A stretch of DNA of 64,000 bases from the NCBI GenBank assembly GCA_017441925.1, contig JAFRUE010000007.1, positions 744,001-808,000 of the forward strand. Reading direction: 5' to 3'. This stretch comes from Bacillota bacterium (lineage in GTDB: Bacteria > Bacillota > Clostridia > Lachnospirales > Bianqueaceae). The notes under the pieces are model-generated. The model worked only from the letters and a program-made list of their open reading frames with translations. It searched no databases and was not told the origin of the DNA. The position numbers and the translations under genes are program-made. Of the stretch, positions 59,467 through 62,450 are shown piece after piece (the stretch's first letter is position 1; each line of letters begins with the position of its first letter).

Positions 59467-59523
59467 AAGATCACCCGCTTGGCTGAAGCCAGCGGTACGC
59501 TAAATCGTTATCATCTGAAATAC

Positions 59524-59591
59524 AAACGCTCCATCCCCAATGCAGACCGGCTTTAAAATGTCCGGTTTGTCATTGGGGTGGAGCGTTTTTT
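59524..59591 (+). terminator. Terminator after icd
   Basis: AAACGCTCCA-T-CCCCAATG pairs with CATTGGGG-TGGAGCGTTT (one bulged base), followed by T-run. The long loop contains a second small stem (ACCGG and CCGGT-like) around CTTTAAAATGT. Confidence 0.92.
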
Positions 59592-59631
59592 GTATCGTAG
59601 ATAATTAACGTGTTTTCGCGTGCCGCCGTCT

Positions 59632-61542
59632 TCAGCCAAGCGGAATCTCGACGACTTCCGCCATCCGCGTCAGGAATCCGTCGATCTGTTCGGAGATCTC
59701 ACGGCCGAGCCGCTCGGTGATCTCGTCGTTCTTGTCTGTTTCAAGCGTCGCCATCAGTTTTTCTTTAATTTCTTTGGTGATCGTATGGATCCGTCCCGCA
59801 AAATAACCTCTCGGGATCAGCTTGCGGATGGGCTTAGGGATCTTTGCGTCCAGAAAAGCCTTCTGGATCGCTTTTTTGCCGAGGAAAAGCACCAGCAGCG
59901 AGATCGCCGCACCGCTGAGAATTCCTGTGATCCCGCTTGAGATCAGCGCAACCCCGCCTCCGCCGCACAGGAGTCCGATGAGGACGGATACGATCGTATT
60001 CATGAGCCAGGTCATTTCCTCGACCGCAAAGACTTTCTTCGCGTCCAGCTGGATCTGTATCTCCTGATAGGACAGATATGAAGTCAGGCTCATGGCCTGA
60101 TACGGCACATTGTGACGGATACAGATCGGGATGGTGTGCTTCTCGATCTCGGAAGAGACCGGCTTCATCCAGGCTGAGACCGGCCGGACCAGCAGTTCCC
60201 CGACCTCATCCGAGCGCAGATATTTCTCGATCTCTTTCTGCAGAACCGCATCGATATCGGACAACCGCTCGATCTCCCCGCTGCGCCAACGGTCAAAGAC
60301 CGGCAGCGCCGCGTTCTCAAGGATCGGCTCGACCAGTGTATCTACAGCTTTTTTATACAGTTCGTCAATGTGATCCCGTACGATATCCTCTACCACGGAT
60401 GAACTTCGCAGTTCATCGATGTCCGCCTTAAAGAGCCGCAGCTCCTCGTCCGTCTTGCCGCACCACGCAAGTCCGCGGCTTACGGAGAATTCCGGTTCGG
60501 CAGCGTTTATAACGACTGCCTCCGGGAACGCTTCGCGGCACCACTCGGCAACAGCCGGTATTCTAGAAACGCCGCCGGTCAGGAAGATCAGTTCCGGAAC
60601 ACCCTCCGCGGCGCTCTGTCTGGCAGTCTTGAGACTCTCCGTAAAGACCTGCCGGAATGAACGTCCGCCAAGATAGGAAGAAGCGCCTTCAAGCAGTCTG
60701 TGCGCAATTTCCGAGTCGATCCGCATGTTCAGCTTACTGCGGCCGTGATACAGAACCGTCACCGTTTTGCTGCACTCGTGATCTGTCCAGTATTCTTCAT
60801 CGGAGAAATACTGTTCTTTCAGCCTTCTGGCGGCAAACTCGCAATAGGTCCGCCAGGGATCGCTCTCCGCGAAGACTCTCTCCAGCTTATCGCGCTGGCG
60901 GCTGTTCTCAACGCAGATATCCAGCAGCATCTCGTCCATTATGCCGCCGCCCAGCACCACTTCGCCGCCGGTCTTAAGCTCCACTTCGCGGCCGCCCGCA
61001 ATATAGGCAAAATCAGTCGTTGAGGAACCGATATCCACGACAAGAACAGGTTTGCTCAGAATATCATAGCTGAGCTGCAGATGTTTAGAATGCACGGCAC
61101 TGACGAGCGCCGCCCTTGATTCCGAAATGATCTTGACCGGCGGATAGCCGACACGTTCAAAGATCTCGCGATAGCGCTCCCGGACGTTCTTATTCCAGCC
61201 GGCCGGACATCCGATATAGAAACAGCAGTCCTCGTTCTGCACCAGGTTTCCGTTCCCGTACAGTTCTCCCAGCACGCCTGCCGCAAAAGCCTGTACATCC
61301 CGCTCCGCGTCCGGATCCGTCAGAAAGCGGCTCTTGAAGCGGAGTCTTCTGGCCGTAACGTCCGAAGCATAACAGGCACTCTCGCCGATCAGAAGCTCCC
61401 CGCCTGTCGTGCGGGCATACGCAGTGATAAAACTCTTCTGGTCCTTGACCGGAAGGATCTCCGGTGTCGTCTGATCATTTGCGTTCAGCCGGGAGACCGC
61501 ACTCTCCGCATCTCCCAGATCCAGTCCATAGAATCGGTTCAT
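59632..61542 (-). CDS. Hsp70-like actin-fold ATPase with C-terminal membrane segment
   Basis: A 636-residue protein. Residues 1-360 resemble the Hsp70 ATPase: phosphate-1 loop YGLDLGDAESAV (5-16, lacking the usual GTTNS), phosphate-2 VVDIGSSTTDFAYI (168-181), VVLGGGIMDEMLLD (195-208) and adenosine block IFLTGGVSRIPAV (319-331). Instead of the substrate-binding domain there is a helical region (365-510), then two membrane helices (about 511-554, MNTIVSVLIGLLCGGGGVAL and AAISLLVLFLG), and a charged tail. That is not DnaK. Its start overlaps the stop of the membrane partner gene by four bases. No DnaJ or GrpE is adjacent. Function unknown; a membrane-bound ATPase switch or chaperone is inferred. 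Confidence 0.8.
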   Translation of the reverse strand: MNRFYGLDLGDAESAVSRLNANDQTTPEILPVKDQKSFITAYARTTGGELLIGESACYASDVTARRLRFKSRFLTDPDAERDVQAFAAGVLGELYGNGNLVQNEDCCFYIGCPAGWNKNVRERYREIFERVGYPPVKIISESRAALVSAVHSKHLQLSYDILSKPVLVVDIGSSTTDFAYIAGGREVELKTGGEVVLGGGIMDEMLLDICVENSRQRDKLERVFAESDPWRTYCEFAARRLKEQYFSDEEYWTDHECSKTVTVLYHGRSKLNMRIDSEIAHRLLEGASSYLGGRSFRQVFTESLKTARQSAAEGVPELIFLTGGVSRIPAVAEWCREAFPEAVVINAAEPEFSVSRGLAWCGKTDEELRLFKADIDELRSSSVVEDIVRDHIDELYKKAVDTLVEPILENAALPVFDRWRSGEIERLSDIDAVLQKEIEKYLRSDEVGELLVRPVSAWMKPVSSEIEKHTIPICIRHNVPYQAMSLTSYLSYQEIQIQLDAKKVFAVEEMTWLMNTIVSVLIGLLCGGGGVALISSGITGILSGAAISLLVLFLGKKAIQKAFLDAKIPKPIRKLIPRGYFAGRIHTITKEIKEKLMATLETDKNDEITERLGREISEQIDGFLTRMAEVVEIPLG

Positions 61543-62381
61543 CCTTTTCCTCCTGCTGCCAGGCCTTTCTTGAGCAGCTTTCCTTTGCAGACCATCGCCG
61601 GGCGGATCAGCCCTCTGCCGTCCTTCAGGAAGTCCTGGGATGCCGGCAGCGTTTCGAACCAGTCCGGATGTTCTTTCTGTGAATCCACAAGCTCCACACC
61701 GATCCGGTGCAGATGGAATTTCAGCGATTCCACTGCCTGCAGCGCGTCCTCGCCGTCATCGGCATACGAAGCCTCCAGCATCTGTGCGTACAGCTCTGTC
61801 TGCTCTTTTGTCAGAATTTCGTCCTCCGGGCCGGTTTTGCGTTTCATCGCCTCAAGCTCCTGTCCGATCTCCGACAGGCTGTGATCGATCGTCAGAGCTA
61901 CGGCATACAGAGCCTGCCAGGCGCTTTCCGCATCGATAAGGATCTCCGCCTTCTGTTCGGCTGTATTCGCGGTCGTGCGGCGGATCATCAGAAAGACCTG
62001 CAGGGCGGCCACTCCCATAAAAGCCGCGACAGCCGCGATCTTCGCCTGCTCTCCGCCTGTAAAAAACAGAAAGACGAGCGCGGCGATGATCCAAACGTCG
62101 ATGAGCAGCCAGAATGGAAAAGCTTTTTTCTTCTCTCCGGAATGCTCCCAGATCTTGGCGTCCTTAGCCGCTTCCATGACCGGAACGGTCCGGGACACAC
62201 TGCGAACGAGGCCTGCTGCGGCGCACTGCAGCACTGGATCCGCGCAGTCCTGATTATACAGGACCAGCAGCCTGTCAAGTTCATTCTGGAGGATCTTCCG
62301 TACAGGAACAGTCCCAAGGTCAGAACGCATCAGCGTCAGCAGCCTGTCCTCGTCCTGCTTCAGATTGTCCGCGAAATTCAT
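61539..62381 (-). CDS. Two-helix membrane protein, partner of the Hsp70-like ATPase
   Basis: I do not recognise this 280-residue protein. Residues 1-87 are a cytosolic helical region (MNFADNLKQDEDRLLTLMRS; AAGLVRSVSRTVPVMEAAKDA), residues 88-107 and 112-133 form a membrane hairpin (FPFWLLIDVWIIAALVFLFF and IAAVAAFMGVAALQVFLM), and 140-280 are a second cytosolic helical region with acidic stretches (AYAVAL-type helix, EAMKRKTGPEDEILTKEQTELYAQML). The hairpin-in-the-middle layout, the operon with the ATPase and the four-base overlap suggest the two proteins form one membrane complex. Ribosome site AAGGGAT. Confidence 0.75.
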   Translation of the reverse strand: MNFADNLKQDEDRLLTLMRSDLGTVPVRKILQNELDRLLVLYNQDCADPVLQCAAAGLVRSVSRTVPVMEAAKDAKIWEHSGEKKKAFPFWLLIDVWIIAALVFLFFTGGEQAKIAAVAAFMGVAALQVFLMIRRTTANTAEQKAEILIDAESAWQALYAVALTIDHSLSEIGQELEAMKRKTGPEDEILTKEQTELYAQMLEASYADDGEDALQAVESLKFHLHRIGVELVDSQKEHPDWFETLPASQDFLKDGRGLIRPAMVCKGKLLKKGLAAGGKG

Positions 62382-62422: not shown

Positions 62423-62450
62423 ACTGCCTGCAGAATGTTCCGCAGGCAGT
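62423..62450. terminator. Hairpin between the MATE gene and the partner gene
   Basis: ACTGCCTGC and GCAGGCAGT pair around a ten-base loop. On the plus strand ATATTTTTATT follows; on the minus strand, after the MATE gene, TTGACTTTAG follows, so termination of the MATE transcript may be partial and the two downstream genes may depend on read-through. Confidence 0.65.

Follow-up and report, generated by a model that had tools for sequence, protein, structure and literature searches.

A membrane-anchored Hsp70-type ATPase encoded beside a membrane-anchored partner with a predicted GrpE-like half

Hsp70 proteins are usually read as peptide-gripping chaperones helped by J-proteins and GrpE. The locus studied here raises the question of what an Hsp70-type ATPase does when the peptide-gripping part is missing and when its gene overlaps that of a membrane protein.

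The gene pair and the architecture of the ATPase

The window, i.e. the whole 64-kb stretch of DNA that was analysed, carries the two genes on its minus strand. The ATPase gene (59632..61542) encodes a protein of 636 residues (P0001), for which 80 homologues were collected. The partner gene (61539..62381), directly upstream, encodes a membrane protein of 280 residues (P0002). Both open reading frames are present as described in the first-pass annotation, and so is the ATGA sequence in which the partner stop and the ATPase start overlap (61539..61542, minus strand). This overlap suggests translational coupling. A MATE transporter gene lies upstream of the pair on the same strand. The interval between them contains a terminator-like hairpin (62423..62450, minus strand), with a stem of 12 pairs and identified by consensus match only. 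Downstream, on the opposite strand, are genes for isocitrate dehydrogenase and aconitase. Inspection by eye also revealed, at 59518-59595, a long inverted repeat with a run of T after it, located between the ATPase gene and the isocitrate dehydrogenase gene. It is perhaps a bidirectional terminator; a scan for short-loop hairpins did not list it. A motif search found no J-domain in the 64-kb window. The claim that no DnaJ or GrpE is encoded nearby stands as far as genes recognisable by sequence are concerned, but it does not extend to the partner, which itself has a predicted GrpE-like half. Canonical DnaK and GrpE genes are encoded separately in the same genome.

Residues 1-367 of the ATPase (60442..61542, minus strand) correspond to an Hsp70-type nucleotide-binding domain, as delimited with AF2, VIA-align and Foldseek. 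The AF2 model, computed with the alignment of 80 homologues, has a mean pLDDT of 80. When this region was compared with Hsp70 nucleotide domains using VIA-align, Z values of 30-32 were obtained, with Ssz1 ranking first, followed by DnaK. Among the matches listed, Ssz1 has the closest solved nucleotide-domain fold (Z 31.6-32.2). Foldseek gave an E value of 7e-15 for the same domain. The Pfam profile search proposed in the first-pass annotation returned HSP70 at residues 110-358, with 34.3 bits for a curated cut-off of 20.6, and no match to the substrate-binding domain. Some weak matches to the ATPase were also found in the order to which the window belongs; the open reading frames that were read turned out to be ordinary DnaK or other Hsp70 proteins, not members of the family.

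The nucleotide blocks DIGSSTTD and LTGGVSRIP were both found in the ATPase, as previously noted. The phosphate-1 loop (residues 8-14; 61501..61521, minus strand) reads DLGDAES in 80 of 80 relatives, versus DLGTTNS in DnaK. Positions D8, G10 and S14 are invariant in this set. In two distant relatives, the loop becomes DLGHGET, again keeping D, G and S/T. Thus, the earlier description of a lost phosphate loop was right about the absence of the DnaK sequence but overstated, the loop being altered rather than lost. Five further residues, K70, E141, D170, T175 and D177, are invariant in all 80 relatives. Motif and HMM alignments place them as the equivalents of K70, E171, D194, T199 and D201 of DnaK. 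Because the catalytic equivalents are invariant, the window protein is expected to be an active ATPase. Mean column identity across the 80 relatives reaches 62%. With this number of relatives, this level of identity and a partner gene adjacent in every case, the observation is not due to chance.

Beyond residue 370 or so, neither Pfam nor fold searches gave a match to a substrate-binding domain. The loss of this domain, inferred at first from the sequence, is therefore confirmed, and helices followed by a membrane hairpin take its place. The helical region (residues 368-500; 60043..60441, minus strand) was delineated from the AF2 secondary structure. It is conserved even in relatives from a Calothrix plasmid and from G966, a clostridial genome of another family. 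The hairpin, at about residues 504-555 (59878..60033, minus strand), was located by hydropathy and corresponds to AF2 helices 507-526 and 540-554, of low pLDDT. A central hairpin is also found in the partner, so that the membrane helices announced for the two proteins are accounted for. LeoBC, a PADLOC model for a dynamin-like defence protein, was matched below significance (E 0.03) by the C-terminal membrane region (residues 392-632) of the Calothrix ATPase (P0004).

The ATPase finishes with a pair of helices ending in the near-invariant tail MAEVVEIPLG (59635..59667, minus strand), identified by a tail tally and in structural alignments. This tail is the most conserved region of the protein (majority fraction 0.90). 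For several DnaK chains that stop at residues 390-391, in the linker, the structural alignment extends as far as residue 632 of the ATPase model, inside the tail. This hints that the tail could dock at the Hsp70 interdomain linker site, possibly as a substitute for the linker. Docking is only a lead, because pLDDT values in the tail are low (44-73).

The partner and its resemblance to GrpE

The AF2 model of the partner is confident, with a mean pLDDT of 85.8. It starts with a helical domain (residues 1-84; 62130..62381, minus strand), for which pLDDT values of 89-97 were obtained through residue 60. A membrane hairpin follows (residues 90-138; 61968..62114, minus strand), visible as AF2 helices 90-107 and 111-138, and recognised from hydropathy and positive flanks. 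The remaining half (residues 143-280; 61542..61955, minus strand) was matched to GrpE structures by VIA-align. In the model, it is made of a long helix (151-182), two shorter helices (192-207 and 211-226) and a small beta domain. The most conserved motif of the partner, LIRPAMVCKGKLLKKGLA (61557..61610, minus strand), is still recognisable as VYPAVVKDDSIIVKG in G966 and as LAPALLKGDRLLRRG in Calothrix. Overall, the partner is conserved far less than the ATPase (31% versus 62%), and neither protein belongs to a named Pfam or NCBIfam family. Matches of the partner to a threonine exporter, an inclusion membrane protein and a holin were rejected as reflecting membrane-helix composition. Matches of its helices to dynamin and MxA stalks (Z 8-9) were also set aside; they correspond to a common helical arrangement, and no GTPase domain is present.

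The two flanks of the partner hairpin each carry a net charge of about +2, and the loop has a median length of 8.5 residues. With such positive flanks and such a short loop, the positive-inside rule places both soluble parts of the partner in the cytosol. For the ATPase, the charges beside the hairpin give no indication of orientation; the ATP-using domain must be cytosolic too. Almost nothing of the pair would then be exposed outward, which makes direct sensing of the cell envelope, a role suggested at first, unlikely.

We then consider whether the C-terminal half of the partner is GrpE-like. In the predicted model, the succession of helix, helix pair and beta domain follows the GrpE order. 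VIA-align superimposed the partner on GrpE 1dkg with Z 7.5 (133 residues, rmsd 10.2), on 9a81 with Z 7.0, on 4ani with Z 6.9, on 9bls with Z 6.2, on 9blt with Z 5.5 (92 residues, 3.9 Å) and on 3a6m with Z 4.4 (66 residues, 3.3 Å), all these values being below Z = 8, the level that the tool treats as safe; in this range, fortuitous matches between helical arrangements can occur. Rmsd values of the long alignments are of 7-12 Å. Within the list of 263 chains, no PDB entry other than those of GrpE matches this half (residues 141-280) as a whole; five of the GrpE entries span 141/184-280 and 3a6m covers 209-280. Since GrpE has been solved in about nine PDB entries, six of which are in the list, these matches are unlikely to have arisen by chance.

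Sequence comparisons gave a different picture. Pfam searches with 78 partner members, as full proteins and as C-terminal halves, did not list GrpE (PF01025) among the families, and a sequence-profile search of the PDB with the partner found no GrpE. With hhalign, the probability of a match to GrpE was <3%, slightly above that of column-shuffled profiles, and native and strand-swapped GrpE profiles scored equally, and weakly. Foldseek searches of the PDB with the partner model yielded nothing at E <0.1, the GrpE matches coming from VIA-align re-ranking. The strand motifs IRPAMV...KKGLA of the partner do recall the end of GrpE, though in swapped order: QKGY precedes RPAMV in GrpE, whereas RPAMV precedes KKGLA in the partner. 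As the sequence profiles are negative and the last two strand motifs are swapped, we call the partner GrpE-like and do not file it as a member of the GrpE family. That it works like GrpE is the best reading in view of its predicted fold and of its adjacency to an Hsp70-type ATPase.

The partner could instead be an adaptor, that is, a subunit stimulating the ATPase or recruiting substrates, with a coincidental resemblance to GrpE; the pair would still form a membrane Hsp70-like machine. The negative profile and hhalign searches and the reversed order of the GrpE motifs fit this explanation. So does the fast divergence of the partner, as often seen with adaptors, and so does the lack of a linked J-domain protein, which leaves hydrolysis in need of another stimulator. 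We nevertheless consider an adaptor rather unlikely, because the only PDB entries covering the whole of residues 141-280 are GrpE, because the partner adjoins an Hsp70-type ATPase, and because the motif of the beta domain is the part kept across phyla.

Another explanation concerns the ATPase, which could polymerise along the inner membrane as an actin-like scaffold in the manner of MreB or FtsA, the partner serving to anchor or nucleate it. The ATPase is indeed tethered to the membrane and devoid of a substrate-binding domain, and it shows weak, sub-threshold matches to MreB, ParM and a phage partition protein. Such a scaffold is quite improbable, as Pfam scores remain below threshold for MreB_Mbl (19.9 bits for a cut-off of 27) and for FtsA (12 for 31.8), but above it for HSP70. 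In addition, the best 50 structural matches listed all belong to the Hsp70 family and cover the whole nucleotide domain. A GrpE-like partner serving an Hsp70-type ATPase is the reading retained below.

Linkage of the two genes and distribution of the pair

In all 80 relatives fetched from genome contigs (80/80), the partner gene lies directly upstream of the ATPase gene on the same strand. Over these loci, the median gap is 18 bases, and the genes overlap in 10 cases. The survey of gene neighbourhoods that the first-pass annotation had called for was carried out by clustering the neighbours of the 80 loci, and it revealed no third conserved gene, no other gene being present in >10 of the 80. 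In one locus (G1205:C20:2870-4655; L154, L155), the ATPase frame is split in two by a frameshift or an assembly error, and the partner is intact.

The sample of 80 relatives is biased towards the best matches, and an even sample of 200 genomes of the NK3A20 family was added. The ATPase was found in four of the 200, with the partner adjoining it in the same four, and no other genome has either gene. Three further weak matches to the partner were obtained in this sample, covering only the membrane helices of proteins of 660-670 residues. In the window's own family, each gene occurs in 7 of 19 genomes, and these are the same seven. Distances within the ATPase family and within the partner family are correlated at 0.91, for a permutation maximum of 0.12, which shows joint inheritance of the two proteins. 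In these samples, the partner is neither absent from nor unlinked in the genomes carrying the ATPase, and the ATPase does not group with an ordinary DnaK having a complete substrate domain, the genome encoding DnaK and GrpE separately. These data bear out the proposal of a dedicated two-component membrane system distinct from a DnaK variant.

More than 300 relatives were found in a single pattern scan, mostly in rumen and gut species. Members are named Lachnospiraceae, Oscillospiraceae, Erysipelotrichaceae and others, mainly from rumen or gut assemblies. The pair is infrequent and patchy: in addition to the 4/200 and 7/19 given above, it occurs in 13/195 genomes of the family to which a Solobacterium member belongs. 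In a quick tree, ATPase copies from Erysipelotrichaceae nest inside those from Lachnospiraceae (the nested copies are L047, L066, L067, L076, L077, L079, L097, L102, L104, L110, L114 and L120). The tree is consistent with horizontal spread, which is probable, although the names given to assembled genomes cannot be relied upon. No relative was found in phage records and viral contigs.

Two distant loci keep the same arrangement. G966 encodes an ATPase of at least 698 residues together with a partner of 307 residues ending in the motif given above. A plasmid of the cyanobacterium Calothrix brevissima encodes an ATPase of 640 residues, with 26% identity over 94% (E 3e-62). Upstream of it, a hairpin protein matches the partner profile; its conserved motif is in a shifted frame, the partner copy being frameshifted in the record. 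This plasmid (strain NIES-22, AP018209.1; L156 4997-5900) is conjugative, and the pair sits between integrase genes. Since both the Calothrix plasmid and G966 preserve the arrangement, the pairing is ancient.

That the pair is an accessory conflict or defence module, akin to predicted GTPase systems containing HSP70 and GrpE, is very improbable: the patchy and probably horizontal distribution, the integrases around the Calothrix copy and the report by Kaur et al. (2020, PMC7159879) of GTPase-centred systems that contain HSP70 with GrpE, and HSP70 without a peptide-binding domain, are in its favour, but neither P0001 nor P0002 matched a PADLOC model at E values up to 0.1, the genes around the pair vary, being metabolic or transport genes without any defence gene that recurs, and no GTPase or effector is linked to the pair.

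Proposed mechanism and comparison with known systems

Overall, we favour, with somewhat better than even confidence, a self-contained system in which a membrane-tethered Hsp70-type ATPase and a membrane-tethered GrpE-like exchange partner would perform a membrane task from the cytosolic side. ATP would be bound and hydrolysed in the cytosol by the complete Hsp70-type nucleotide domain. The conformational change would be passed to the helical region and to the membrane hairpin, not to a peptide grip. We infer that the partner, which has a hairpin anchor of its own, would offer the ATPase its GrpE-like helix-plus-beta domain and promote the release of ADP, the cycle thus running on the membrane without soluble GrpE. 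The VVEIPLG tail may dock at the interdomain-linker site on the nucleotide domain and control hydrolysis. The target of the work would probably be the membrane itself or one of its proteins, acted on from the cytosolic face. A bolder version, tentative but possible, sees an Hsp70-type ATPase rewired to drive the membrane, with the tail, in place of the interdomain linker, as the allosteric switch and a tethered GrpE-like partner, its strands possibly rearranged, recharging it; this would be a free-standing, ATP-driven two-gene machine present in at least two phyla. A widespread pair in which the ATPase and its GrpE-like partner are membrane-bound and the grip has been dropped would mean that the Hsp70 cycle is able to drive machinery of another type. 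Small soluble fragments would be enough for a direct test of the exchange activity of the partner and of the idea of the tail as a linker.

No paper describing the pair turned up in literature searches. Several known systems share some of its features. Ssz1, the closest solved nucleotide-domain fold among the matches listed, is an atypical ribosome-associated Hsp70 in a fixed complex; it is soluble, has a J-protein partner and a truncated beta substrate-binding domain. The window ATPase differs from it by its membrane region and its conserved hydrolysis residues. In the order to which the window belongs, DUF5716/DUF5717 clusters also place accessory Hsp70-type proteins, one paralogue being DUF5716, beside a dedicated GrpE-domain protein (L157, G025:C131:3000-12000; L158, G021:C25:38000-47000; L159, G022:C15:55000-62000). 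In L157, the Pfam-recognised GrpE domain ends a protein of 645 residues, next to the DUF5717/TPR protein. Literature searches under the names DUF5716 and DUF5717 found nothing related. These clusters lack the membrane hairpins of the window pair and differ from it further by a TPR/DUF5717 protein, a Pfam-recognised GrpE and the presence of several Hsp70 paralogues.

The nearest published idea is that of the GAP1-N2 GTPase-centred systems, some of which include HSP70 and GrpE and a second HSP70 without a peptide-binding domain (Kaur et al. 2020, PMC7159879). In contrast, both proteins of the window pair carry membrane hairpins, and no gene for a GTPase, FNIII or DnaJ protein or for an effector lies in the vicinity. 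According to two studies (PMC7281324, PMC9239167), cyanobacterial DnaK3 and the DnaK1-DnaJ3-GrpE system involve chaperones of the DnaK type that cooperate with J-proteins and with the general GrpE. They resemble the window ATPase as specialised Hsp70 proteins with membrane-linked roles, whereas no dedicated membrane-anchored exchange partner is described for DnaK3 or DnaK1 in these two studies. Finally, compared with Hsp70/DnaK and GrpE themselves, the pair differs by the missing substrate-binding domain, by DAE in place of TTN in the phosphate-1 loop, by the membrane anchoring of both proteins, by the lack of a linked J-domain protein and by a partner that is not detectable as GrpE by sequence. 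It is alike in its Hsp70-type nucleotide domain with the catalytic residues, and in the predicted GrpE fold of one half of the partner.
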